From Pedobacter sp. ok626 (lineage in GTDB: Bacteria > Bacteroidota > Bacteroidia > Sphingobacteriales > Sphingobacteriaceae), in contig NZ_FNEX01000006.1 in assembly GCF_900100435.1 (NCBI RefSeq), forward strand, positions 1 to 64,000: a stretch of 64,000 bases of DNA. Reading direction: 5' to 3'. The position numbers were made by a program, and so were the translations under genes. Shown piece by piece: positions 49,669-63,781 of the stretch. Under the pieces are notes generated by a model. That model made no database searches. It was not told the origin of the DNA and saw only the letters and a list, made by a program, of their open reading frames with translations. The first letter of the stretch is position 1. Every line of letters starts with the position of its first letter.

Positions 49669-50337
49669 ATGGCAAAATTAACAAATGGCATCCTGGGGCC
49701 AATCCTGGGGAAAATCGAAAATTTGGTAGGCTACATAAGATTAGGAGTACCCGTGATCAGGATGAGACCGAGAAAGCCTAAAAAGAAGATAAAGAGAAGT
49801 GATGGACAGAAAGCGGTGAACTTAAAGTTTAGAATTGTAAAGTCGTTCATTTCTATTGTCAGTGAATTTGTAAATGTTGGGTATAGGCTGAATGCGCTTG
49901 GAACTACAAAAATTGCTGAAAACAATGCGACCTCTTATTTGCTCAAGGAGGCTATTGTGGGAGAGTATCCTGATCTTGCTTTAGATTTTAGTAAAGTGAA
50001 ATTATGTAAAGGTAAATTGCCGCCACCTGTAAACGCGACCGTTGAACTGGAAGGAGATTTCTTAAAGTTTAAATGGGATGTGAACCCAAACTGGAATAGG
50101 TTTTTAAAAAGAGATCAGGTCATGCTATTGGCTTACAGTCCGGTAAATGAGGTGGCCGAATACGTATTGAGTGGCGCCCGAAGATCGGAAGGCGCGGATG
50201 TGCTACCTGTTAACATTGTACGTGAAGATAGTTCCTGGGTTAAAAAGGACGCTTATCTGGAAACGTACATGGCCTTTATCTCTGACGATAGGCAAGGTAT
50301 TTCAGATAGCATTTACGTAGGCAAAGTTATGATATAG
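49669..50337 (+). CDS. DUF6266-like protein
   Basis: A 222-aa protein starting MAKLTNGILGPILGKIENLV, then VGYIRLGVPVIRMRPRKPKK, the pattern of the DUF6266 family found in Bacteroidota genomes, often near T9SS or surface-protein genes. The first half is basic, the second half beta-rich. No signal peptide. Function unknown. It is divergent from the adhesin operon and converges on the MocR gene with a shared hairpin terminator. Confidence 0.7.
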   Translation: MAKLTNGILGPILGKIENLVGYIRLGVPVIRMRPRKPKKKIKRSDGQKAVNLKFRIVKSFISIVSEFVNVGYRLNALGTTKIAENNATSYLLKEAIVGEYPDLALDFSKVKLCKGKLPPPVNATVELEGDFLKFKWDVNPNWNRFLKRDQVMLLAYSPVNEVAEYVLSGARRSEGADVLPVNIVREDSSWVKKDAYLETYMAFISDDRQGISDSIYVGKVMI

Positions 50338-51996: not shown

Positions 51997-52455
51997 ATGA
52001 TCTATTACAGCAAGACTACCCAATTGGTTGCCAATCTTTTTGCATTACTCTTTATTATAGCCGCAGGTGTTCAGTTTATGCATCTGGATAAATTTGAGGC
52101 TCAGCTTGAGGAATTTCCCATTCTTTCTTCTTTTTCTTTAACACTATCCTGGTTTATTCCTGTAATTGAAATTGCTATTGCTGTGTTGTTGTTTAAGCGA
52201 AAAACAAAGCTGTTCGGGCTTTATGTTACGAGCTTTTGGTTTGTGTTTTTTTCTTTTTACATCATGTTTCTATTAACTGCCAGCACGTACGCGCCTTGTG
52301 CTTGCGGCCATTCATTTTTTACTATGAGCTGGGAAAACCAGCTATTGTTTAATACAGCTTGCATATTGATTTCTGCAGCTGCGCTATCTTTTAACAAACC
52401 CAATACCTATGCACTCTCACGTCAAACTAAATTTAAAGCCCATTTTAACAATTAA
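51997..52455 (+). CDS. MauE/DoxX-like redox membrane protein, copy 1
   Basis: A 152-aa protein with four membrane helices (about 10-28, 44-66, 73-95, 114-132). A PCACG motif (C101, C103) lies in the loop before the last helix. MauE of methylamine dehydrogenase maturation and related proteins are membrane components linked to disulfide formation in the periplasm. The copy at 54813 has the same layout (PCSCG, then W-x-E/H-x-L-x-FN). It is divergent from the MocR gene; its last 47 nt overlap the start of the AraC gene. Confidence 0.75.
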   Translation: MIYYSKTTQLVANLFALLFIIAAGVQFMHLDKFEAQLEEFPILSSFSLTLSWFIPVIEIAIAVLLFKRKTKLFGLYVTSFWFVFFSFYIMFLLTASTYAPCACGHSFFTMSWENQLLFNTACILISAAALSFNKPNTYALSRQTKFKAHFNN

Positions 52456-53389
52456 CCTATCAACTAATGGACTACAAAATTTAAGCACTTTTCCTTTAAA
52501 ACTGGGTGAGGCCAGTTATTATACCATGGATGATGGTATTTTACTCCTCCAATCTCTCGACCATTACCTGGCGCATATTCATTTGTATGAATATAAAATA
52601 GAAAAACATGCGCTTGTAGATCTAGAGATTACTGAAACTTCTTTTTTCATGGTAGCTACGCTGGATGGCTGCGCTATACTTTATAATGAGGCCGATGAAA
52701 TGGTCTCAGAAGTTTTTGGTAATTCCTGCAGATTGGTTTGCCTTAAACCCGGAAAATATAAATGCAGCGTCATGTGTGGCGAGCATCAAATACAATTACT
52801 GAATATATGGCCAGAATGGCTAATCAAAAAATACGGCGCACTAGAGGAGTTACGAGAACTTATCGCTTGTTATGATGACTACGAATTGGAAAGCTTTAGC
52901 TTACCAGGCTTTAGTATCGGACATCAGGTGTTTACCGGTCTTAGAACAATGAACAAAGGTATAGGCTTTAGAGATCTGGATAATGACATGCACACTTTTG
53001 TGAATGACTGTATCAGCAGATATCTGGTGAAGCTACACGACAGCATTCGTCAGGCAAAGAACCAGGAACTCAAGGCCCGGGAAATAGGTGAATTTGTAAC
53101 TGCGAATTTCGCAAGTAAAATTGTTGGCGATGAGCCCGCTCTGGCCAGTCATTTCATGATCTCTACAACTATGTTGATCAGACTGGCCAAACTTTATTTC
53201 GGCAGACCTTTACACCAACAGGTGATAGAGTTGCGCGCGCACCATGGTTTGAAAATGCTTTTAGCCACTCAATATACTGTACAAGAAATAGCCACAAGGG
53301 TAGGTTATGATGATCCCAAGTATTTTAGCCGCCTATTTAAAAAGAGATTTGGCATTACGCCAAATGAAGTTCGCATCTGCGTGATTTAG
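52409..53389 (+). CDS. AraC family transcriptional regulator
   Basis: A 326-aa protein with a C-terminal AraC DNA-binding domain (about 225-326; second helix-turn-helix VQEIATRVGYDDPKYFSRLF, closing FGITPNEVR). The N-terminal 200 residues are a poorly recognised sensor part with several Cys. The ATG at 52409 overlaps the MauE-like gene by 47 nt; the next in-frame ATG at 52526 would avoid this but would cut part of the sensor domain, so the start is uncertain. It probably controls this region or an amine-related pathway. Confidence 0.8.
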   Translation: MHSHVKLNLKPILTINLSTNGLQNLSTFPLKLGEASYYTMDDGILLLQSLDHYLAHIHLYEYKIEKHALVDLEITETSFFMVATLDGCAILYNEADEMVSEVFGNSCRLVCLKPGKYKCSVMCGEHQIQLLNIWPEWLIKKYGALEELRELIACYDDYELESFSLPGFSIGHQVFTGLRTMNKGIGFRDLDNDMHTFVNDCISRYLVKLHDSIRQAKNQELKAREIGEFVTANFASKIVGDEPALASHFMISTTMLIRLAKLYFGRPLHQQVIELRAHHGLKMLLATQYTVQEIATRVGYDDPKYFSRLFKKRFGITPNEVRICVI

Positions 53390-53405
53390 TCTGGAGGTGG
53401 TGGAT

Positions 53406-53453
53406 TTTTCTGGCAAGAGGGATAGCATAAATTTGCTATATTTTGCCAGAAAA
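53406..53453. promoter_or_regulatory. 11-bp inverted repeat flanking a -7-like box
   Basis: TTTTCTGGCAA (53406-53416) and TTGCCAGAAAA (53443-53453) are perfect complements 26 nt apart. A TAAATTTG box at 53428-53435 lies between them. It follows the AraC stop at 53389 and precedes the Crp-like gene at 53548. Confidence 0.5.
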
Positions 53454-53547
53454 GTCCAATTGATCTTAAAAAAAAAGTCCCGAATTTTGAGTTAACACGA
53501 TATTTTGGTTACCAGTAGTTTATTGAAATCTTTTTAATCAGGAATAT

Positions 53548-54198
53548 ATGATACCATGTGAAAATGAATCAAACAAAGACAGATTAGAACGGATCATCAG
53601 GAATGAAATTCTACCTAAATTAGAATCAATTGTTGGCGCTCAACTCTCAGAATTTGTCGATTTATTGCTGCAAAGCTGTAAATTAAAAAACTATGCTAAA
53701 GATCAGTACCTCGAAGAAAGCAGGTCTTTCGAAGATGGAAAACTGTTCTATATAATCAGCGGCATCGCCCGCACCTTCTATTATGATCCATCTTGTGATA
53801 AACCTATCATTTCCAGAATCTGGAAAAAGCATGATGTGATATTTGATGTGAATAGCTTTCAAAATGAAGAGGATCGGGCGGAAACCGTTCAGATGCTGGA
53901 AGATGGAGAACTGTTGACTATAGATTATTACAGCTTAAAAAATTTACTGAATGTTTTTCCAAAAATGGCTCACTGTGTAATGTGTCTCCAGGCAGAACGT
54001 GAAAAGTATGCGATGTTTTATCAGCGCTTGTTAAAACTGAGTGTCGAAGACCGGGTTCGATTGTATCTTAATGATAATCCAACCTTAAGTAATAGAATTA
54101 ATAAAGATTGTATTGCAACGCATCTGGGCGTTTCCAGGAGTAAGTTTAGTAGTGCTTATGCACTATATAAACAAGATAAAAACAGGCAGCTGGCCTAA
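53548..54198 (+). CDS. Crp/Fnr-type regulator
   Basis: A 216-aa protein with a cyclic-nucleotide-binding-like beta barrel (about 40-140, KDQYLEESRSFEDGKLFYII) and a C-terminal helix-turn-helix (about 188-210, CIATHLGVSRSKFSSAYAL). Residues that bind cAMP are not evident, so the ligand is unknown. A hairpin follows the stop. It is the third regulator within 4 kb. Confidence 0.8.
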   Translation: MIPCENESNKDRLERIIRNEILPKLESIVGAQLSEFVDLLLQSCKLKNYAKDQYLEESRSFEDGKLFYIISGIARTFYYDPSCDKPIISRIWKKHDVIFDVNSFQNEEDRAETVQMLEDGELLTIDYYSLKNLLNVFPKMAHCVMCLQAEREKYAMFYQRLLKLSVEDRVRLYLNDNPTLSNRINKDCIATHLGVSRSKFSSAYALYKQDKNRQLA

Positions 54199-54208
54199 TG
54201 ATTTAAAT

Positions 54209-54244
54209 GTTCCAAAAGGGACACCTATTTGTCTCTTTTGGAAC
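54209..54244 (+). terminator. Hairpin after the Crp-like gene
   Basis: A 15-bp stem with one G-U pair (GTTCCAAAAGGGACA / TGTCTCTTTTGGAAC) and a 6-nt loop, 10 nt after the stop. No T-run follows, so termination is likely but not certain. Confidence 0.55.
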
Positions 54245-54302
54245 AAGGCTCCCTTAAAAACCTCCCCATATTTGGTATAACAAAACGCTAATACTCAAAA
54301 CT

Positions 54303-54662
54303 ATGAACGCTGATAAAATCATCGATTTCCAGAAGTCTGAAAGATGTGACGTGATGGATGAAAAACAGAGTTCGTATTACATTACGCTTGAACAAACGAG
54401 TACTACGCCGAGAGATCTTTTTATGTGTGAATACAACTGTGATGAAGAAGAAGTTAAAAATGAAGAACACAACATCTGCTTTTATGGTGGAGCAGAGAGT
54501 TATCATGGTTTGTTTATTTCGAAGGTATTTGCAGATACGGAGGCAGAGGCTTTGAAAAGAGCAATCAAACTAAGGAATGAAGCGATTGCAAAAGGGGAGT
54601 GGGGCCTGGCCTGGGAAAGGTATAAGGTACAGCAATCGCGAATGAATAAAAGAAGTTGGTAA
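54303..54662 (+). CDS. Small protein of unknown function
   Basis: A 119-aa soluble protein, acidic in the middle (NCDEEEVKNEEHN) and basic at the end. No signal peptide, membrane helix or domain I recognise. It lies alone between the Crp-like gene and the second MauE-like gene. A box CATATTTG, one base off the -7 consensus, lies about 30 nt upstream. Confidence 0.55.
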   Translation: MNADKIIDFQKSERCDVMDEKQSSYYITLEQTSTTPRDLFMCEYNCDEEEVKNEEHNICFYGGAESYHGLFISKVFADTEAEALKRAIKLRNEAIAKGEWGLAWERYKVQQSRMNKRSW

Positions 54663-54812
54663 TACAAATGAAACCAAATTATATACAGTTTTTACTCTAA
54701 GGAAGGCCGAGGGCTAATCTGATGGACTATTGGTCCCGGTCTTTTCTTCGATGTTGAGATTGAAATTACTGGAGATGGATGATGAAGCGTTTGAATAAAT
54801 TAAAATAAACAA

Positions 54813-55298
54813 ATGACTAAGATTCTAAAAATGGAAACAACAATGAGCAAACAATCAAAAAGTTGGTTTTCGGGTAAAACCAAAAGAACCATTGTTGACA
54901 TTATAATCTATTTGTATGTACTCCTGTTTTTATATGCCGCAACAAGCAAGCTGATAGAGTATGATAAATTTCAACTTCAGATAAGTAAATCGCCAATCAT
55001 CACAGACTTTGCATACATATTGGTCTGGATGGTACCAGCCCTGGAAATTATCATCTCTATTATGCTGCTCATTAAAAAAACACTTATGCTGGGATTATAT
55101 GCTGCTTTTGGTTTGATGTGTTTGTTTACGGCTTATATCTACGCGATTTTAAACTTTACCGATACCATTCCTTGCTCATGTGGCGGCGTATTGGAAAAGC
55201 TAGGCTGGACTGAGCATTTGATATTCAATATTGGATTTGTGGTCTTAGCATTTTTAGGGATTTTGTTGCAAACAACTATAGAAAAGAAGACTTTGTAA
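54813..55298 (+). CDS. MauE/DoxX-like redox membrane protein, copy 2
   Basis: A 161-aa paralogue of the protein at 51997, with four membrane helices (about 27-45, 66-88, 92-114, 133-152) and the same motif as PCSCG (C121, C123) before the last helix, followed by GWTEHLIFN. Alternative ATG starts lie at 54831 and 54843. A small exported C-x7-C protein follows 92 nt later on the same strand, which links this membrane protein to the small-protein family. Confidence 0.75.
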   Translation: MTKILKMETTMSKQSKSWFSGKTKRTIVDIIIYLYVLLFLYAATSKLIEYDKFQLQISKSPIITDFAYILVWMVPALEIIISIMLLIKKTLMLGLYAAFGLMCLFTAYIYAILNFTDTIPCSCGGVLEKLGWTEHLIFNIGFVVLAFLGILLQTTIEKKTL

Positions 55299-55390
55299 AG
55301 TCTATAAGATATTCTTTTGGCCAAATGAATCAGGGGATGCTGAAAACCTGTAACCGACAGAGTAAGCACTTAAACAATAAATTTAAAAAC

Positions 55391-55639
55391 ATGAAAAAAT
55401 TATTTTTTACCGCCCTTGTAGCAGTAGTTGCTGTAGGCGGAGCATTCTCTGTAAATGCAACTACTTATTATAAATTAGATGGTAGTGTTGCTGTTGAATG
55501 TCTACAAGATGCCGACATTCAATGTTCGGAGTATGTTAGTGCAAATGGTCCTGTTTACATTTCTCCAACTCCTGCAAACGATCCAACTAGAGCACAACCT
55601 TCTTCACTTATTTTAGAAAGTACCTTTTACAATCAATAA
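55391..55639 (+). CDS. Small exported two-cysteine protein, copy A
   Basis: An 82-aa protein with signal peptide (1-23, ends VNA-T) and a 59-residue mature part with exactly two cysteines, C37 and C45 (C-x7-C). It shares with the copies at 56774 and 57246 the pattern YYxLxG, then V-x-x-C, DIQC, YxSxTPAxD and a terminal YNQ/E. It resembles DUF6520-type small Bacteroidota proteins; I am not certain. I chose the ATG at 55391, where the signal peptide begins; the frame extends to 55325 without adding anything sensible. It ends at a strong terminator. Confidence 0.75.
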   Translation: MKKLFFTALVAVVAVGGAFSVNATTYYKLDGSVAVECLQDADIQCSEYVSANGPVYISPTPANDPTRAQPSSLILESTFYNQ

Positions 55640-55642
55640 TTA

Positions 55643-55677
55643 GCAAAAAGGCCAACAGTAACGGTTGGCCTTTTTGC
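55643..55677 (+). terminator. Terminator after small protein A
   Basis: A perfect 14-bp stem with its T-run included (GCAAAAAGGCCAAC / GTTGGCCTTTTTGC), 3 nt after the stop. Confidence 0.85.
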
Positions 55678-55703
55678 TTAATAGCAAATTATTGACCTGA
55701 ATT

Positions 55704-56768
55704 ATGAAAAAGACAATGTTTATTCTTATTTCACTGTTATTGTTAGGCGTTCTTGGAGTGGTTATTCTATTTAATTATTCTACCAAAGGGGAAAATAGAG
55801 AAAATGGTTTCATTCGTACTTTTAGCGGAACAAAAGCTATATTAGAAAATAGCATTCGTCTTATGGAGGATAAGTATGACTTTGTTGGCTTACAAGACAA
55901 GTCAATACTTTTATATAGGCTTGAAAAGCCTTATGAAATTATAGAGATTGAATATGACCTCAAAAAAATTAAATATAGAACTCTTCGAATTCCTACTCAT
56001 ATTGGAGACTTCAAGGGGGTTAATACAGTCAGATCTTACCAGGATGCATTCTTTTTATTAAATGGGAAAAATGGAATGGCATATAAAACTGGTGAAAACA
56101 GTAAAAAAAATATTGCGAGATTGGATAGCAATTCATTTTATCATGCAGATTTAATTAATTCAAATTCCTTTCTTTTTATGAGTAGTAAATATTATCAAGG
56201 GATAAATAGACGAATTGTTGGGAAAGTTAATTGGAAAGGCACTAACCGAATAGACTTTATGCCAGAGAAACAGATCGATGGCATATTTTCTACAGACGGT
56301 CAAGTAAAATATGATAAACCCTCTAATGTCATTGTATATATGTTTTATTTTAGAGGTGTCTTTATGTGTTTAGATACAAACTTAAAAACGATATACCAAG
56401 CAAAGACAATAGATACTGTGAAGTATGCAAGACTAACGACAACAACAACAAAGCTATTTTACGGAAAAGATACCATCCAAAAAACATCAACACTAGGGAG
56501 GCCATTACTTGTAAATCGAAGATTTTGTATTTTCAAAGAGCATATTTATATCCATTCATACCTAAGAGCAGATAATGAAAGTCCCGATGAATTTGGAAAA
56601 TCAGGAACAATAGATATTTATGATCTCAAAACGGGAAAATATCTTCAGAGCTTTCATTTGCCAAGAGTAGGAAATCATAAATTAAGTCAATTTAGAATAT
56701 ATAAAGACAAGCTAGTTGGACTATATGGTAGTCAGTTGGCTGTATTTGTTATAAAATATAAAAATTAA
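55704..56768 (+). CDS. Exported or membrane-anchored protein, possible beta-propeller
   Basis: A 354-aa protein with an N-terminal helix (about 3-24, MFILISLLLLGVLGVVILF) as signal anchor and a beta-rich rest. Segments such as DKSILLYRLEKPYEIIEIEY and SGTIDIYDLKTGKYLQSFHL look like propeller blades, as in 6-bladed NHL/BF3164-type proteins, but the repeat is weak. A small two-cysteine gene begins 5 nt after its stop, so the two are co-transcribed. A decayed copy of its last 26 codons lies at 57163-57240. Confidence 0.7.
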   Translation: MKKTMFILISLLLLGVLGVVILFNYSTKGENRENGFIRTFSGTKAILENSIRLMEDKYDFVGLQDKSILLYRLEKPYEIIEIEYDLKKIKYRTLRIPTHIGDFKGVNTVRSYQDAFFLLNGKNGMAYKTGENSKKNIARLDSNSFYHADLINSNSFLFMSSKYYQGINRRIVGKVNWKGTNRIDFMPEKQIDGIFSTDGQVKYDKPSNVIVYMFYFRGVFMCLDTNLKTIYQAKTIDTVKYARLTTTTTKLFYGKDTIQKTSTLGRPLLVNRRFCIFKEHIYIHSYLRADNESPDEFGKSGTIDIYDLKTGKYLQSFHLPRVGNHKLSQFRIYKDKLVGLYGSQLAVFVIKYKN

Positions 56769-56773
56769 AAGAT

Positions 56774-57013
56774 ATGAAAATATTAACTAATTGTGTTTTG
56801 TTGGCCTTGCTTCCTATAGGTACTTCAATCGCCATACCCTACTACAATTTAGCAGGGTATAAAGTTCTAGAATGTAACGAAATCTCAGATATCCAATGTT
56901 CATCTTTTGCAGTTATCAACGCCCCTCTTTATTATTCTGCTACACCGGCTTTTGATTTTACTAGACCGCAGCCGTCATTTCTAGAACTAGAAAACAGTTA
57001 TTACAATCAATAA
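56774..57013 (+). CDS. Small exported two-cysteine protein, copy B
   Basis: A 79-aa protein, signal peptide 1-20 (ends SIA-I), mature part with C34 and C42 (C-x7-C) and the family pattern YYNLAG, DIQCS, TRPQPS, ending YYNQ. Another Cys (C7) lies in the signal peptide and is lost on cleavage. It starts 5 nt after the propeller-like gene. Its twin at 57246 arose by the tandem duplication. Confidence 0.75.
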   Translation: MKILTNCVLLALLPIGTSIAIPYYNLAGYKVLECNEISDIQCSSFAVINAPLYYSATPAFDFTRPQPSFLELENSYYNQ

Positions 57014-57062
57014 TCTTTTAGAAATCTAAAATATTTATTGAAAGTAGGGTTAGTTATAATCT

Positions 57063-57160
57063 TTAATTTAAAATCTTGTTATTAGTGCTGTTCTAATCAT
57101 TACATAATTTTTTCATTGGAATTGTTATCTATTTTTATCACTATTAACAAGACGTAAAAT
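57063..57160 (-). pseudogene. Remnant of the 3' end of the TlpA-like gene
   Basis: On the minus strand this still reads like the last codons of the gene at 57535-59055 (LVNSD, then MIR-AL) but with a 16-base loss and a frameshift. It belongs to duplication copy 1 and is not expected to be translated. Confidence 0.8.
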
Positions 57161-57162
57161 GA

Positions 57163-57240
57163 TTTAGAATACACAAAGACAAGCTCGTTGGACTATAGGG
57201 TAATAAATTGGGTGTATTTACAATAGAGTATGAAAATTAA
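57163..57240 (+). pseudogene. Remnant of the 3' end of the propeller-like gene
   Basis: It aligns with the last 26 codons of the gene at 55704-56768: FRIHKDKLVGL, an in-frame TAG, then GNKLGVFTIEYEN and a stop, against FRIYKDKLVGLYGSQLAVFV in the intact gene. There is no start, so it is a non-coding leftover in front of small-protein gene C. Confidence 0.85.
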
Positions 57241-57245
57241 AAGAT

Positions 57246-57485
57246 ATGAAGACATTAACTAATTTCGTTTTGTTGGCCTTGTTTTCTATAGGTAGTTCAA
57301 TTGGAGTACCCTACTATAATTTAGCAGGGAATAAAGTTTTAGATTGTAATGAAATTGGAGATATCCAATGTTTATCATTTACAGTTACAAATGGTGCTGT
57401 TTACATTTCTCCAACTCCAGCTAACGATCCTGCTAGACCACAGGCTTCAATGAATCAAGTAGAAAACAATTATTACAATGAATAA
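57246..57485 (+). CDS. Small exported two-cysteine protein, copy C
   Basis: A 79-aa protein, signal peptide 1-20, C34 and C42, ending YYNE. It is the duplicated twin of copy B. The duplication also copied the 5' context including the AAAAGATATG start region, so translation signals are kept. Its central part VYISPTPANDPARPQAS is closer to copy A than copy B is, so copy B may have diverged more. Whether it has its own promoter is unclear; read-through from 55704 is possible. Confidence 0.7.
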   Translation: MKTLTNFVLLALFSIGSSIGVPYYNLAGNKVLDCNEIGDIQCLSFTVTNGAVYISPTPANDPARPQASMNQVENNYYNE

Positions 57486-57534
57486 TACTTTAGAAATCTA
57501 ATATATTTATTGAAAGTAGGGTTAGTTATAACCT

Positions 57535-59055
57535 TTAATTTAAAATCTTGTTATTTAGTGCTCTTCTAATCATCGCGCTAATTTGCTCATTGGATTGATT
57601 ATCTATTTTGGCAATTAATTTCCCATCACTATTAACAAGAAGTAAAAATGGAATCGCTGTTATTTTATAGTAATTCCATAACATTGGATGTTTAACACCT
57701 AAGGAACCAGTGTTTAGATTAATATGGTGTTTATCGGTATAAAGTCCAGAATTCATTGCCTTAAGCCAACGATCCTTTGTTCTATCAACACTTACACTGA
57801 CAACTGCAAATCGAGGGTCTTCTGAAAATTCTGGAAAGACATTGTCTTTAAATTGTTTATAAAAAGCAGCACATCCCCCGCAACCTTCTCCATAAAAATC
57901 AATTAAAAAGACTTTTCCTTTTAAGTCATTTAAGCTTATCAAATTTCCAGATGTATCGGCAAAGGAAAAGTTGTAAATTTCACTTCCTTCTGTAAACAAA
58001 AGTTGCTTGTTAAGAGGCGTAAGTAAAAACGATAAATTTACAATTTTTAGTGCATCTTTTAAACAAGAATCTCTTTGAGTAAAGTTATTAATGCCCGTTC
58101 GTACCTCTGGATTCATAAACATATCTGCAATTAGTCGATCTCGCACATCGGTAAGACCAATGGCTTTCAGTGCATCGTATTGTTGCTTAAACGAATGTTT
58201 TTTACTCCCATTCCTTATATCCAGTTCGTTACTTAATTCTCTCCCTTTGTAACTAATAAAATTGTAGCTATATTTTATTAGTGTATTCTTTGAGACTAAA
58301 TTTACCGATGGTATTTTTGATAAATAAAAATTGCCAATTCTAATTTTGCATTCTTGTGTTGTTGTTGAACAATACAAACGCCACAAGATTGTTAGTAACA
58401 TAGATCTCGATGAGTCAAATTCAGCTCTACAAAAATTCTTTAACTCAGTATCTATGTTTTGACCATCTTTTGATAAGATGCTCTCATGATGTAACATGCT
58501 GGTTTCTGACATGTCATTCCACTCATTAATAATAGTATCGAGATTTTTTGAATCACAAAAAGTCGAAGCCATTATCTTTTTACCAAATTTAAAATATGAA
58601 TTATTTAAATTTGTCCAAAGATTTGAATTCTCAGCTATCATCTGATATGCGATGGTATACTTATCTGCCCCCTTTCCGGAAAAATCTAATAAAATAGCAC
58701 CCTGTTTTTTTTGAAAAAGGATCTTAACTTTATCGGAGGGTGCTACAAAATAATGTCCCTCTAACCGAATAATTTCGGTTCCATAATAAAAAACCAAATC
58801 AATCATAGCGATATGGTCCAATGCTGGCAAATCAACGTGATAAACTCCTTTTTTGGGTTTTATCGTTATTCTTTTAGAATCATATGTTTTAGAAATATTA
58901 TTTTTCCGAAAAATCACAATTATACTGTCGGGCATTCTTTCATTAGATGCTGTCGGTTCCAATGAGAGAATAGGCTTTTTCATTGCGGTTTCTTGTGCTG
59001 TAACCGAACATATACCAAGTAACAGAAACAATAAGACATTTTTAATCTTTTTCAT
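57535..59055 (-). CDS. TlpA-like exported thioredoxin-fold protein
   Basis: A 506-aa protein: signal peptide (1-20, ends VTA-Q), a beta-rich N-terminal domain of the kind seen in Bacteroidota TlpA proteins (about 25-140), a helical middle, and a C-terminal redoxin domain (about 360-506) with the active site C392-G-G-C395 in GEGCGGCAAFYKQF and cis-Pro in ITAIPFLLLV. The periplasmic or lipid-linked redoxin would reduce or shuffle disulfides. It is last in the SusC-SusD-TlpA operon, and its 3' end was copied in the tandem duplication. Confidence 0.85.
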   Translation of the reverse strand: MKKIKNVLLFLLLGICSVTAQETAMKKPILSLEPTASNERMPDSIIVIFRKNNISKTYDSKRITIKPKKGVYHVDLPALDHIAMIDLVFYYGTEIIRLEGHYFVAPSDKVKILFQKKQGAILLDFSGKGADKYTIAYQMIAENSNLWTNLNNSYFKFGKKIMASTFCDSKNLDTIINEWNDMSETSMLHHESILSKDGQNIDTELKNFCRAEFDSSRSMLLTILWRLYCSTTTQECKIRIGNFYLSKIPSVNLVSKNTLIKYSYNFISYKGRELSNELDIRNGSKKHSFKQQYDALKAIGLTDVRDRLIADMFMNPEVRTGINNFTQRDSCLKDALKIVNLSFLLTPLNKQLLFTEGSEIYNFSFADTSGNLISLNDLKGKVFLIDFYGEGCGGCAAFYKQFKDNVFPEFSEDPRFAVVSVSVDRTKDRWLKAMNSGLYTDKHHINLNTGSLGVKHPMLWNYYKITAIPFLLLVNSDGKLIAKIDNQSNEQISAMIRRALNNKILN

Positions 59056-59082
59056 AGTCGTTAGATAATTGTGAGAATTAAC

Positions 59083-60453
59083 TTAATAACCTAAATTTTG
59101 CTTTAAGTTTGGATTTTGGGTAATGTCATAAGCTGGAAAGGGATATAAGATATCGGTCTCTTGCCAAGTCTTTCCTTTTAAAGGAGCTAAAACAGATTTA
59201 GCTAGAGAATTTCTTTTAAGGTCTAGCCACCTATGCCCCCATTCTACAAAAAGTTCAAGTTGTCGTTGCTTGGCAATCTCGATCGTGCATAGATTTTGAT
59301 TCAACCCAGTCAAAGGAGTAACCAATCCAGCTCTTTTTCTAATAACGTTAATGTCTTCCAGTGCCAACTCTGGTTGATCTAATTTAGCTCTTGCTTCTGC
59401 TCGAATTAGGTGTATTTCGGCTAATCGAATTACTGTGTAATATTCTGAAACTGAAGAAGATGATTTTATTTTGTATTTGAAAGGATAATAATATTTCCCG
59501 GTTGTATTAGTATATTCTTTAATCCATTTATATTTTCTGTTATCCCCTAAATCGAACAGTGGGATAAGATTAGGAGACAATGATACAAAAATTGGTGTCG
59601 CAGTTAAGATAAAGAGGCCTCCCTCCAGCGTGTTTGACCCAGCCTGTGGCATTAATTGCCAGATAGTCTCGGTACTGTTCTTCAGAAAGACTTTATCTAA
59701 ATCATCTATGAGACTATAAGTCGTTTTTTGATCGATTATTTCTGATGCCTCTCTGGCGGCGAGTTCCCAATTTTCGTTATATAAATAAACCCTGGAAAGC
59801 AGTGCTTTTGCAGCCCACTTGTTTGGTCTGACTCTTTCGCCGCTAATATAGGTAGAAGACATTAGTTTTTCTGCATCTATAAGATCAGAAATAATTTGAG
59901 CATATACTCTATCTTTGCTGGATTTCCCTTCAATTCTGTTAACTCGATAATCGCTTGAAAGTGTGAGGGGTATTTCTCCCCAAAGATTAACTAGATAAAA
60001 ATAGAAAAATGCTCTAATAAACTTCGCTTCGCCCTCCAATTGCATTTTTGTAGCTTTACTTACCCCATTGGATGCCGCCAACCCTTCCAAAATTGAATTG
60101 GCCGTATAAATGTAACTATAAGGGGTAGACCATAAAAGTTGTATTATAGATGAATTTTTATCGACTTGTGCCTGATAAAATCCAGCTAACTCATCTGAAT
60201 ATGATATCAATTCATCTGCTGAAACTCCTGCTATTGTTGTTATTGATGAATAATTTCCTGAACTAAAATTTGAAACAGCCATTCTACTGTAAATTCCAGT
60301 TATGGCAGAGGTTGCAATTATGTCATTTTCAAAAACTTGATCCGGTCTTATCTTATCTTTAGGTGGGTCAATTTGTAAAAAATTTTTGCAGGAATAATTT
60401 ACTGATATTAGCAATACCATACAAAATGTCAGGTTTTTAGATATAAATTTCAT
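59083..60453 (-). CDS. SusD/RagB-type surface lipoprotein
   Basis: A 456-aa SusD family protein: lipobox ISVNYSC, then KNFLQIDPPKDKI and the helical TPR-like core (FIRAFFYFYLVNLWGEIPLT, RLAEIHLIRAEARAKL, ELFVEWGHRWLDLKR). It binds the substrate for the SusC channel encoded directly upstream. The TlpA-like gene follows 27 nt later. Confidence 0.93.
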   Translation of the reverse strand: MKFISKNLTFCMVLLISVNYSCKNFLQIDPPKDKIRPDQVFENDIIATSAITGIYSRMAVSNFSSGNYSSITTIAGVSADELISYSDELAGFYQAQVDKNSSIIQLLWSTPYSYIYTANSILEGLAASNGVSKATKMQLEGEAKFIRAFFYFYLVNLWGEIPLTLSSDYRVNRIEGKSSKDRVYAQIISDLIDAEKLMSSTYISGERVRPNKWAAKALLSRVYLYNENWELAAREASEIIDQKTTYSLIDDLDKVFLKNSTETIWQLMPQAGSNTLEGGLFILTATPIFVSLSPNLIPLFDLGDNRKYKWIKEYTNTTGKYYYPFKYKIKSSSSVSEYYTVIRLAEIHLIRAEARAKLDQPELALEDINVIRKRAGLVTPLTGLNQNLCTIEIAKQRQLELFVEWGHRWLDLKRNSLAKSVLAPLKGKTWQETDILYPFPAYDITQNPNLKQNLGY

Positions 60454-60463
60454 AATATTTTAG

Positions 60464-63400
60464 TTATAATGTGATTTGAAATCCAGCTGAAATAACCTGA
60501 AGACTTGGAAGACCTACTGAGCTCTGTGTTTCAGGATCTAAGCCTAGATATTTTGTAATAGTAAATAGATTTTGTCCTTGCAGATAGAACCTAATACTAT
60601 TAAATTTTATTTTTTTTGTAACATTAGATGGTAGTGTATAGGAAAAATCGACGTTCTTTAACCTAATAAATGATGCATCGACAATTGCCAGCGAACCGTT
60701 TTTAGTTGCTGTCGTGTTGCTTATTGAATTTGTGCTAGTTGTTCCAAATTTTTGAAATGATGGCCTATCATCGACATTTTGCCAACGATCAAGAAGTTCC
60801 ACAGGAAAATTGCTTGCCTGAGGTGTTCTTATATTAAAACTACCCGTTACACCTCGTTGTGAATAAAAACTACTTCCAGATTGTTTTACTACCTGGAATA
60901 AAAAGTCCAGCTTAAATCCCTTATAAGTAAGAGAATTTTCAATTCCGCCGTAGTACTTCCGTCCTATGAATTCAATTTTATACCGATCATCATCGTCTAT
61001 GATCCCATTTTTATCATAATCCTCTGCAACATACAGACCTGTTTGGGGATTTACATATGTATTATAGACTTTTAATATCGAAAGCGGCTGTCCAATTTCA
61101 TACAATAATTGTTTACCCAACCCCGGATATTTAAGTAGTTTGTTTTTTGGGAGTGTAAAATTAATAGAGGTATTCCACCTAAAATTACTAGTCGACAAAT
61201 TCTTGGAAGTTAATATAAATTCAATTCCTGTATTACTAACTTTTGCCGGTAAGTTCGTAGTTACTCCCGCCCAGCCTGTAACATAAGGAAGGCGATCATA
61301 TAATAGTTGATTTGAAGACCTATTACTATAGAAATCAAAAGATAAATTAATTCGGTCTTTAAAAAGACCCAGATCTATGCCAGCTTCAAATTTTTTATTC
61401 ACCTCCCAGGCATATTCAGGATTGGAAATTTGATTTGGTGATAATGTTGACAGACCTTGATAAGTACTAGAAGTCCCCGTATTTGTACTCCACAATGATA
61501 GATAAGCGTAATCTGAAATTTGGTCATTTCCAGTTACTCCATAACTTACACGCAATTTCGCAAAACTTATAAAATTGTCCTTTTTTCTAATGAAATCTTC
61601 CTGACTAATTATCCATGCAGCGCCGATTGCACCAAAATTAGCAAAACGACTTTCATTACCAAACCGACTACTACCATCTCGTCGTGCGGTTAAGTTTACA
61701 ATATATTTATCACTGAAATTATAATTAAGACGGCCGAAAACTGCTGTATATCGATATTGCAGATATCTTCTTTCTTGAACAGTGAGCAAAGACGCCGCTG
61801 CAATATTTCCAAGTAGCGCATCACTAGCAAAATTGGATGCTACGATGCTCTGGCCATCATTTAAATTCTGCTGAAAGGTCGTTCCTAAAAGTGCTTGGAG
61901 CTTTCCTCTCCATACAGTCTTATTCCAGTTAATTTGTGGTTCGACAATCCACGTTTCAACTGCATAATCCGAGAATACGGCTTCTCTACTTTCCGGACCG
62001 AAATTTGATCCTGGATACCTTAAATTCAAAGGGTTATTGCTATAATCGTGCTTATCCATTTTAGTGAATCCGAAATTTGTTTTAAAAATTAAGTCACGGA
62101 AAATTTTATATCCTAATGATGTGTTTGTTGTTAAATTATTTGTTTTAGAAGTAAAATCCCTTCGTGATTGCGCTAATGGATTTATGTTCATTCTGTTATC
62201 ATCCCAATTTAAATTTCCCTCGTTGTCAAGAAGATCTGGGAAATTTGGCGGCAGGTAAATAAATTGTGTCATGTCACCTGGGAATAAATCGCTTCTTATT
62301 TGACTATAGTTAGCTGAGAATGTAGCAAAGAATTTCTTATTATCTGAATTATATTGTATACCAATATTACCTGAGTTTCTACCAAAAGAGCTTTTTTCAA
62401 GAAAGACAGTACCTTCTTTGTAATAACTTCCACTAAAAAGATATTGTAGATTTTCATCTCCTCCAGATAATGAAGCTTGTAAGTTTGTCATTGGTGCATT
62501 ATGACCGATCAATTCCTCCTGCCAATCAATATTTTTAGTAGGTGACCATATACTATTTACATCGTATTGATTAGCTGCTGGGGTGATTTTGTCGTTGGCA
62601 AATGCTTCATTTCTCATCTCAAGGTATTGGGTGTTATTCATTAAATTCAATTTATGACCAACTCTTGAAATACCTTGATTTAAGCTTATTGATGTATTTG
62701 TTTTTCCCGGTTTCCCCTTTTTAGTGGTGATTAAAATTACTCCATTCGCTCCTCTAGCCCCATAAATCGCAGTAGCATCAGCATCTTTTAAAACCTCAAT
62801 GTTTTCAATGTCCATGGGGTTTATACTAGCTAAAGGGCTAGAATTCAGTAATATTCCGTTACCCTGCCCCGCCGAAATTGTTGTTGATGAAAACGGAACC
62901 CCATCGATAACGTAGAATGGCTCATTACCTTGATTTAAGCTATTCTTACCTCTTATTTGTACTTTAAATCCGCCTCCTGGTACACCAGTATTCTGTAGAA
63001 CCTGTATACCGGGAATGTTTGCCTGCATTGCTTGCAATACATTATTTATTGGCTGTTTTTCAATATCTTTTGAAGTGATTCTAGATATTGAACCCGTCCG
63101 CTCTCTATCGGTTACAGTATAATACCCTGCATTTATCTGTACTTCCTCTAATTTATCGGTACTTGGTGTTAATTTGATAGAGGGGATATTTTTAACTGCT
63201 TTTACTTCCTGTGTTTCGTAGCCTAAAAAAGAGATAACCAGAGTGACATTTTCATCCACATTTTTCAACATAAACTCCCCATTAGAATTGGTAGAGGTGG
63301 AGTTTTTTTCTCCCTTTACTTTCACAACTGCTCCCGCCAAAGGTTCGTTATTTTCATCAAGCACACGGCCACGCACATCAATATTAGCAAAAAGAGCAAT

Positions 63401-63781
63401 AAGCTTGTCACGAAAAGAAGACACATCTGCTTTAACCACAATAGCTTTTCCGATAATTTGGTAGGTAACTGCGCGTCCAAATAAAACATTGTCCATCACC
63501 TTATCAAGTGGTGTATTGTAAAAGTTTGCATCAATAGACATGTGAGAATTAAGTTTTCCCTCGTACCAAACTACATTGTAACCGGTTTGGCGTTTAATTT
63601 CTTTAAAGACCTGACTAATGGTGGTATTGTCCTTATTATAAGTTAGCTTTTGTCCGCGACTGTCTCTCGCACTCAATTGGAGTACTGCTAATAAAATTAT
63701 AATAGGGGTTAACCTCATTAAGTATAGAGTTTTGAAGAAGCCCTCTATGAGGGCTTCTCGGTTCATGTAGTTGGTTTTCAT
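60464..63781 (-). CDS. SusC/RagA-type TonB-dependent receptor with STN domain
   Basis: A 1105-aa receptor with an N-terminal signal region (about 22-42, MRLTPIIILLAVLQLSARDS; other in-frame Met at residues 6 and 22 are possible starts), an STN domain (about 48-112), a CarboxypepD_reg domain (about 135-210, VRGRVLDENNEPLAGAVV), the plug signature VLKDADATAIYGARGANGVI and a TonB barrel ending SAGFQITL. The STN domain predicts control by a FecR/ECF pair, which would lie beyond the right edge. No carbohydrate enzyme is linked to it. Confidence 0.94.
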   Translation of the reverse strand: MKTNYMNREALIEGFFKTLYLMRLTPIIILLAVLQLSARDSRGQKLTYNKDNTTISQVFKEIKRQTGYNVVWYEGKLNSHMSIDANFYNTPLDKVMDNVLFGRAVTYQIIGKAIVVKADVSSFRDKLIALFANIDVRGRVLDENNEPLAGAVVKVKGEKNSTSTNSNGEFMLKNVDENVTLVISFLGYETQEVKAVKNIPSIKLTPSTDKLEEVQINAGYYTVTDRERTGSISRITSKDIEKQPINNVLQAMQANIPGIQVLQNTGVPGGGFKVQIRGKNSLNQGNEPFYVIDGVPFSSTTISAGQGNGILLNSSPLASINPMDIENIEVLKDADATAIYGARGANGVILITTKKGKPGKTNTSISLNQGISRVGHKLNLMNNTQYLEMRNEAFANDKITPAANQYDVNSIWSPTKNIDWQEELIGHNAPMTNLQASLSGGDENLQYLFSGSYYKEGTVFLEKSSFGRNSGNIGIQYNSDNKKFFATFSANYSQIRSDLFPGDMTQFIYLPPNFPDLLDNEGNLNWDDNRMNINPLAQSRRDFTSKTNNLTTNTSLGYKIFRDLIFKTNFGFTKMDKHDYSNNPLNLRYPGSNFGPESREAVFSDYAVETWIVEPQINWNKTVWRGKLQALLGTTFQQNLNDGQSIVASNFASDALLGNIAAASLLTVQERRYLQYRYTAVFGRLNYNFSDKYIVNLTARRDGSSRFGNESRFANFGAIGAAWIISQEDFIRKKDNFISFAKLRVSYGVTGNDQISDYAYLSLWSTNTGTSSTYQGLSTLSPNQISNPEYAWEVNKKFEAGIDLGLFKDRINLSFDFYSNRSSNQLLYDRLPYVTGWAGVTTNLPAKVSNTGIEFILTSKNLSTSNFRWNTSINFTLPKNKLLKYPGLGKQLLYEIGQPLSILKVYNTYVNPQTGLYVAEDYDKNGIIDDDDRYKIEFIGRKYYGGIENSLTYKGFKLDFLFQVVKQSGSSFYSQRGVTGSFNIRTPQASNFPVELLDRWQNVDDRPSFQKFGTTSTNSISNTTATKNGSLAIVDASFIRLKNVDFSYTLPSNVTKKIKFNSIRFYLQGQNLFTITKYLGLDPETQSSVGLPSLQVISAGFQITL

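Follow-up and report, generated by a model that had tools for sequence, protein, structure and literature searches.

What does a bacterium gain from encoding a tandem array of very small exported cysteine-pair proteins next to a MauE-like membrane protein and a SusCD importer? The question is raised by a locus near the end of the 64,000-nucleotide stretch analyzed here (the window), taken from contig NZ_FNEX01000006.1 of Pedobacter sp. ok626, a genome of 6.76 Mb. A previous reading of the letters alone (the sequence-only reading) had noticed two MauE-like proteins with PCxCG motifs, three small C-x7-C proteins, a propeller-like protein, a TlpA redoxin with a CGGC motif and a SusC-SusD pair, all of which are indeed in place, and had taken the small proteins for redox clients or disulfide-carrying factors of an envelope thiol system. 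The module it saw is real and recurrent. Its constant core is a small disulfide-type protein together with SusCD, while MauE is a very frequent helper, the propeller is optional and TlpA is a common neighbor. At a rough probability of 40%, we regard the mature small protein as a rapidly varying partner that the cell makes for its own SusCD, most likely as a ligand to be bound or taken up.

The forward-strand part of the locus starts with MauE-like protein 2 (54813..55298), a likely disulfide-forming membrane enzyme with a PCSCG motif that matches PF07291 at 110.5 bits (cut-off 27). It is followed by a DUF805b-like pseudoknotted RNA leader (55330..55369), small exported protein 1 (55391..55639), a putative β-propeller protein of 354 aa with one transmembrane (TM) segment (PROP; 55704..56768), small exported protein 2 (56774..57013), whose start lies 5 nt beyond the end of the PROP stop codon, and small exported protein 3 (57246..57485). 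This rightward run converges with a reverse-strand block composed of a TlpA-type redoxin (57535..59055; CGGC motif; Thioredoxin_8, 1.6e-12), SusD (59083..60453; SusD-like_3, 2.1e-33; SusD_RagB, 7e-25) and SusC (60464..63781), the latter with CarbopepD_reg and Plug domains and a weak STN match. From the cell-surface-signaling gene set, Plug and SusD score above their cut-offs in the window and STN reaches 24.1 bits (cut-off 28.4). The genes listed by the sequence-only reading are there, but the locus is longer than it had drawn: just past the window end lie a FecR-like gene (contig 63988-65103) and an ECF-like gene (contig 65160-65792), both assigned by similarity to paralogues and position only.

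The same gene order is found in a paralogous locus on contig C21 of the source genome (L025), which consists of two Crp-like genes, a 119-aa protein, MauE, a small protein, PROP, three small proteins, TlpA, SusD, SusC, FecR and ECF, and whose small proteins have four cysteines each. Two more loci of this genome (L026 and L027) contain MauE, a small two-cysteine protein and SusCD, and no PROP. Decayed propeller-gene pieces with stops separate the tandem small genes of L025, and the window has such a piece at 57163..57237, on the forward strand, where the 3' end of a second propeller gene is recognizable (68% over 25 aa, one stop). Since these pieces lie between intact tandem small genes, small-PROP units seem to have been duplicated, with the propeller copies then lost and the small genes kept intact.

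Three baits, together with four loci of the source genome, gave a sample of 81 loci. PROP, which is an optional part of the module, occurs in 18 of 201 genomes of the family, and 20 of its 22 distinct places outside the source genome were taken (G085 and G063:C7 were left out). The Pfam family DUF6520 (PF20130) gave 27 matches in 22 of 296 genomes of the phylum, of which 17 were taken at length. MauE, found in 80 of 81 family genomes, supplied the 40 best loci not already collected; long MauE frames (about 370-430 aa) were treated as a different type and excluded, and the sole one looked at, that of the source genome (L028), has no small protein or SusCD listed there. MauE is present in 81 of 81 loci, which is a finding for the PROP and DUF6520 samples and a matter of selection for the MauE sample and the source-genome loci. 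In 80 of the 81, SusC and SusD are no more than 9 kb away, the exception (L176) being cut by a contig end, and a small exported cysteine-pair protein was found in all 80 assessable loci. Among the 40 MauE-sampled loci, this protein is separate in 36 (34 by script, two by eye), fused to MauE in three and not assessable in one. Small genes were picked by a script, with the ORFs of L086 and L147 corrected, L088, L195 and L197 added by eye and L181 entered as its fused module; the finder demanded two cysteines, and no assessable locus was lost thereby. The module is not a chance assembly, for the paralogue at C21 repeats its order and all 80 assessable loci contain the arrangement. Five of the 27 DUF6520 matches (L108, L115 and L121-L123) have no MauE in their 3.2-kb locus; in L121-L123 the match covers part of the profile only, inside long frames. 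L113 shows nothing but the propeller in its short copy, and its longer copy, L149, does have MauE. Scanning named-organism genomes with the propeller alignment returned three loci only, all from Pedobacter. A single genome (G019) has 18 MauE matches, a large expansion.

The small proteins of the window are 79-82 aa long and carry exactly two cysteines after residue 20, arranged as C-x7-C, and no tryptophan, as a recount confirmed; small protein 2 has a third cysteine inside its signal peptide. The spacing, described before as constant, is so in the three window copies but ranges from x5 to x8 elsewhere. With one small Sec-type protein considered per locus, a C-x5..8-C pair is present in 80 of 80, so that the cysteine conservation on which the sequence-only reading depended holds, compared with 26 of 157 other signal-bearing open reading frames (ORFs) of the same loci. 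The number of cysteines after residue 20 is two in 56 proteins, four in 20, six in 3 and five in 1 (L086), that is, even in 79 of 80; 17 of the 62 other signal-bearing ORFs with two or more cysteines have an odd count, many such ORFs probably not being genes. The even counts are compatible with disulfides. Small protein 1 has a distant likeness only to DUF6520 (12.9 bits, cut-off 25.4), which proteins 2 and 3 do not match, and none of the three matches NVEALA (PF14055) at E 1. Elsewhere, L260 (8556-9506) contains three tandem small exported two-cysteine proteins with wide cysteine spacing, a DUF805b leader before one of them and no SusCD in the part shown.

The C-x-C motif is conserved in 79 of 80 MauE proteins (seven outside the script pattern were read by eye), and the MauE of L092 has a differing end, perhaps owing to a frameshift. 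MauE is fused to PROP in 14 loci (L089, L091, L139-L149 and L151) and, through a signal sequence, to the small protein in three (L162, L181 and L185). Since the genes are joined in these ways, MauE, PROP and the small protein work together, which agrees with the former proposal that they belong together. PROP is found in 2 of 4 source-genome loci, 20 of 20 PROP-sampled, 14 of 17 DUF6520-sampled and none of 40 MauE-sampled loci, the PROP and MauE figures being so by design. The window protein matches no Pfam family at E 1, including PF17170, PF15869 and DUF4221. Its AlphaFold2 (AF2) model, based on four sequences, comprises a helix and an all-beta domain (pTM 0.71, mean pLDDT 69.5); the first fold match (VIA-align) is the DUF4221 structure 3s9j (Z 18.9, rmsd 3.7, 276 aligned residues), with which NHL domains tie at Z 18.8-18.2. 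The propeller fold, previously a guess, is thus supported by modeling. In L096 the PROP part is preceded by a RamC_N/kinase-like part and a predicted TM segment; the kinase-like part resembles the kinase portion of class III/IV lanthionine synthetases, at scores far under their cut-offs. The whole of L096 7612-10098 encodes one 828-aa protein with the order kinase-like part, TM segment and propeller, a receptor-kinase-like layout.

Upstream of small gene 1, the RNA family RF02914 (DUF805b) matches at 28.5 bits, under its gathering score of 35.6, and relatives exceed that score in L147 (50.8), L088 (48.8) and L082 (42.7). A stem-plus-tail pattern searched on both strands of all loci gave 36 matches, 30 of them near MauE; in 29 of these 30, the three bases before GAAAA are able to pair with those after AGAGT. 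One of these, at L094 10129, is apparently due to chance. When 29 elements were aligned (L189 was left out), 86 of the 87 cells of the three core pseudoknot pairs were paired and 29 two-sided changes occurred; a fourth pair was present in 13 of 29. The numbers of paired and changed cells and the covariation score were above all 500 shuffles, two measures that count pairs or types were not, and the signal was destroyed when the partner was slid. A model built from the 29 sequences (R1), the window copy among them, scores the window leader at 46.5 bits. Over the 81 loci it has 40 matches, including the 29 training elements that match by construction. For 38 of the 40, spread over 35 loci (source genome, 2 of 4; PROP sample, 12 of 20; DUF6520 sample, 14 of 17; MauE sample, 7 of 40), a small gene starts 55-102 nt further on, and L189 and L161 hold the remaining two.

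RF02914 itself was found in 68 of 121 family genomes. Inspection by eye of 32 such places identified seven small Sec genes with the cysteine pair, two Sec genes with two cysteines in other spacing, nine peptides with double-glycine leaders, five lipoproteins or other Sec proteins, four other genes and five cases with no clear gene in reach. Six double-glycine peptides were scanned in NCBIfam and five in Pfam: that of L225 passes TIGR03949, that of L222 passes Bacteriocin_IIc, and the rest pass nothing relevant. The DUF805b RNA may be a general leader of secreted-peptide genes; no DUF805 paper found in the literature search is about the RNA by its title. DUF805b copies also lie near double-glycine peptide genes at L258, L259 and L263, with a C39-peptidase ABC exporter in L259.

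Full lantibiotic dehydratases (PF04738 and PF14028 over cut-off) were detected in 6 of the 81 loci (L168, L170, L173, L193, L138 and L150), and the L173 enzyme used as a query against 113 long sequences found those six loci only, and none in the window. In L168 (9610-14275), L170 (9814-14861) and L173 (9670-14743) the dehydratase is directly divergent from MauE and is followed by a receiver-LytTR regulator and a histidine kinase (Pfam-confirmed in L168) and by a short Thr-rich ORF that could be a lanthipeptide precursor. Together, the RNA leader common to double-glycine peptide genes and the dehydratases of these six loci suggest that the module keeps the company of secreted peptides. Relaxase and YWFCY/TraG mobilization genes are found beside L096, L097 and L262 (the last by sequence likeness only), which suggests that some loci are carried on mobile elements.

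How much of this assembly is obligatory? A TlpA-domain match lies within 9 kb in 3 of 4 source-genome, 16 of 20 PROP-sampled, 4 of 17 DUF6520-sampled and 39 of 40 MauE-sampled loci; it is missing near MauE in 13 of the 17 DUF6520-sampled loci. For comparison, we inspected the stretches around eight of ten SusC paralogues of the source genome (38-41% identity), all of which read ECF-FecR-SusC-SusD without MauE. A TlpA-domain protein stands beside SusD or one gene off in five of them (L212, L213, L215, L218 and L219), and the only small ORF, a doubtful one in L219, is distant from SusCD. TlpA is a common SusCD neighbor that is not specific to the module, and a place for it as an obligate partner is not supported. 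Among scanned loci, proteases also follow SusD (S9 in L139, L091 and L147; a met-zincin in L137; S8 after TlpA in L152), as one does in the MauE-less L213.

The RNA used as a bait offered a test that was impossible with MauE as the bait, namely small cysteine-pair loci without MauE. Eight small cysteine-pair places were reached in this way (the seven read by eye and L224, whose small gene is visible in the longer L256), five with MauE in their 3-kb locus and three without. Sixteen fetched regions then provided eight small-SusCD loci, in genomes G113, G097 and G018 of another genus, that show no MauE match at E 0.01 across 10-19 kb each; all have SusD and a whole, split or contig-cut SusC beside the small gene. 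The two PF07291 matches of G113, a single contig, are a long frame of the core type and a match in a different gene setting, yet this genome has at least three MauE-less small-SusCD loci, while G018 has one MauE locus (L275) with SusD and a small ORF read by eye. Because of these eight loci, MauE is a very frequent helper and not an obligate one.

One pointer to SusCD is the combination of a constant leader with a variable cargo. In the pair L178/L182, identity is 93% in MauE and 89% in the signal peptide, and 32% in the mature part (gapped, as in all four pairs), 44% in SusD, 53% in SusC and 28% in TlpA. The corresponding values, in the same order, are 88, 92, 32, 42, 41 and 47% for L160/L161 (one genome), 84, 62, 35, 34, 39 and 35% for L181/L185, and 58, 79, 38, 48, 49 and 23% for the window and L025. 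In DNA, L249 and L250 (one genome) are 90-99% identical upstream (99% just upstream) and 96% in the signal, and 60% in the mature part and 62% at the SusD end, which is the background level of the same comparison (59-67% in distant upstream DNA); three other printed pairs have 81-85% in the 150 bases upstream, 95-97% in the signal and 62-68% in the mature part. The eight MauE-less loci follow suit, with signals 96-100% identical and a mature similarity that tracks SusD (rho 0.69, 28 non-independent pairs). Over 80 loci, partial rank correlations of the small protein are 0.23 with SusC given MauE, 0.21 with SusD given MauE and 0.13 with MauE given SusC, none of 500 permutations reaching any of the three. 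For 52 pairs with close MauE (>= 0.6), the small protein correlates with SusC at 0.74, SusD at 0.64 and MauE at 0.14, a result that leans on the DUF6520 sample. Within the four tandem copies of L025 (six pairs), the mature part has a nonsynonymous divergence (dN) of 0.21-0.36 and a synonymous divergence (dS) of 0.18-0.34, or a dN/dS of about 0.6-1.4 by pair (about 60 codons), with all four cysteines kept; window copies 1 and 3 give 0.49 (about 60 codons).

On our preferred reading, a small Sec-exported protein with a disulfide loop would lose its signal peptide, cross the outer membrane and pair with the neighboring SusCD importer of the TonB type. MauE, where present, would form its disulfide at the inner membrane, and the propeller, where present, would be an inner-membrane docking platform beside MauE. 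In loci of the window type, with an STN-bearing SusC, FecR and an ECF sigma factor, engagement by SusCD could be relayed to the genes as a signal. Extra cysteines in linked SusC and SusD, looked for as a mark of mixed disulfides, were not found (mean 0.88 and 2.11, n=80 each, when linked; 1.33 and 1.70, n=9 and 10, when unlinked).

Several observations weigh against a SusCD partner. No outer-membrane export gene was seen, the loci having been annotated with nine home-made profiles and selected Pfam scans only, and the AF2 model of small protein A8 was uninformative (pLDDT 42, pTM 0.17). In the MauE-less set, the mature part follows SusC at a rho of only 0.31 (three SusC are partial), and two pairs of the eight loci (L250/L254 and L255/L257) are plain orthologues. 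In Sphingobacteriaceae alone (64 loci), the correlation with SusC given MauE is weak at 0.16, although 0 of 1000 permutations reached it, and the SusC values there span 0.16-0.42; the correlation with SusD is -0.04 for MauE >= 0.5 (33 pairs) and -0.26 for >= 0.6 (16 pairs), and that with MauE given SusC is 0.46 and 0.21 at the same limits. Part of the joint divergence is accounted for by linkage, given that the small gene adjoins the SusCD genes; divergence is also seen in TlpA and the propeller, and window copies 2 and 3 have a dN/dS of 0.41. Overall, co-variation gives moderate support to a small-SusCD partnership. A wider version, which is possible but rather doubtful, would have Bacteroidota make private ligand-receptor pairs: a hypervariable disulfide-locked mini-protein would be released and recognized by its own SusCD, as an insulated channel for self- or kin-signaling, uptake or antagonism. 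Each genome would have several such channels, independent of one another, and the RNA leader they share would tie them to other secreted peptides.

A toxin or antagonistic peptide that meets SusCD-type receptors on competing cells would also suit the tandem arrangement and the fast variation (dN and dS are about the same in one array); the adjacent SusCD would then serve the producer as an altered receptor of its own or as an uptake route. Receptor-swap bacteriocins are known in Bacteroides. The RNA leader is common to double-glycine peptides, two of which match bacteriocin families, mobilization genes lie near L096 and L097, and the dehydratases, directly divergent from MauE in three loci, raised the odds of this explanation. 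However, their count (6 of 81) refers to the sampled loci, the adjacent SusCD can carry FecR, an ECF sigma factor, TlpA or proteases as a working importer would, and no immunity gene was noticed, none having been searched for; we consider a toxin unlikely. That no outer-membrane exporter was seen would also be expected if the small protein never left the cell and stayed in the periplasm, serving SusCD or an inner-membrane MauE-propeller complex as an accessory or regulatory subunit. The three MauE-small fusions keep the module membrane-tethered unless an internal signal is cleaved, and the propeller occurs as a fusion, either with MauE or, across a predicted TM segment, with the kinase-like part of L096. 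Nevertheless, most copies have an ordinary-looking separate signal peptide, the variation is far above that expected of a structural subunit and the RNA leader is common to peptide genes, making such a subunit distinctly unlikely.

The thiol relay of the sequence-only reading, which places the small protein between MauE and TlpA as a redox client or carrier, draws on the conserved cysteine pair, the C-x-C of MauE and the TlpA-domain match in nearly every MauE-sampled locus. We find it improbable, as TlpA is scarce around DUF6520 and also stands beside SusCD without MauE, eight loci lack MauE, and carriers are normally conserved whereas the small proteins vary; a disulfide-carrying exported factor, the other half of that proposal, is still the best view. 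An ordinary nutrient locus, with a small protein that helps SusCD to capture a metal, cofactor or peptide and varies under relaxed constraint, would fit the proteases or TlpA after SusD, as in MauE-less SusCD operons, but is very improbable given that the cysteines and signal peptide are constrained while the rest varies freely and that a genome has several different copies.

SusCD importers typify the Bacteroidota, and for most of them no ligand is known. We know of no self-encoded small partner of RagAB or other SusCD importers; the small protein looks like an undescribed importer partner and might be a ligand of the cell's own making. A partner that is encoded beside an importer and co-varies with it would offer a direct way to learn what such SusCD pairs recognize, and stand-alone MauE proteins, DUF6520 and the orphan DUF805b RNA would all acquire a function at the same time; if the ligand reading is true, a peptide channel for signaling, uptake or antagonism would run through TonB importers. 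Methylamine dehydrogenase operons combine MauE, a small Cys-bearing subunit and a propeller subunit, and the locus shares these three elements. It differs in its SusCD, in the tryptophan-free small proteins of the window and in a propeller that lacks that family's match and is nearest to DUF4221 and NHL folds; as the scanned window proteins include neither a MauA nor a MauB match, a methylamine dehydrogenase-like enzyme was rejected, and the parallel once drawn stays an analogy. That operon is also mentioned in PMC7794033, which describes decRiPPter candidate families of ribosomally synthesized and post-translationally modified peptides (RiPPs) in Streptomyces in which, as here, a MauE homologue is the only mau gene and stands beside a Cys-containing precursor-like peptide. 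The Streptomyces precursors contain 8 or more cysteines, whereas the proteins described here mostly have 2 or 4, come with SusCD and belong to Bacteroidota. The sviceucin lasso-peptide cluster of Streptomyces (PMC9266682) includes SviE (DoxX family) and SviF (thioredoxin), and so likewise links a DoxX-type protein and a thiol oxidoreductase to a disulfide-bearing exported peptide, but it has a lasso synthetase and dedicated transporters, none of which was seen at our loci. These two precedents tie MauE/DoxX proteins to Cys or disulfide peptides in Streptomyces. The SusC proteins match RagA and other solved SusC homologues (PDB matches; PMC11817032). NVEALA-propeller pairs (L154-L156, genome G432, where G432:C2 is covered by L155-L156 only) also place a small exported protein beside a 6-bladed propeller lipoprotein, partly in tandem, and are a possible parallel to the small-PROP pair, but their propellers match PF15869/PF17170 and no MauE was detected beside them. 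A literature search, which lacked most subscription papers, found no paper describing the module and none on DUF6520 or NVEALA; no match listed joins MauE with SusC, and DUF4221/BF3164/DUF5128 led to a phylogeny paper.

Upstream of the core run, and on the same strand, lie MauE-like protein 1 (51997..52455; PF07291, 84.9 bits, cut-off 27; PCACG), with no small gene of its own seen adjoining, an AraC-type regulator (52409..53389; NCBIfam AraC, 2.7e-14) and a Crp-like regulator (53548..54198; NCBIfam CRP, 2.4e-07), each under the cut-off of its NCBIfam model. They are followed by the 119-aa protein (54303..54662), which has no match in Pfam, NCBIfam or PADLOC; eight window proteins had no PADLOC match to an anti-phage system at E 0.1. 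This protein is 79% identical to its copy in the paralogous locus (L025 4975-5334), above the 58% of MauE. DUF6266 proteins occur within 10 kb of the loci at 49669-50337 of the window, L085 15570-16211 and L249 14431-15087 (three scanned).

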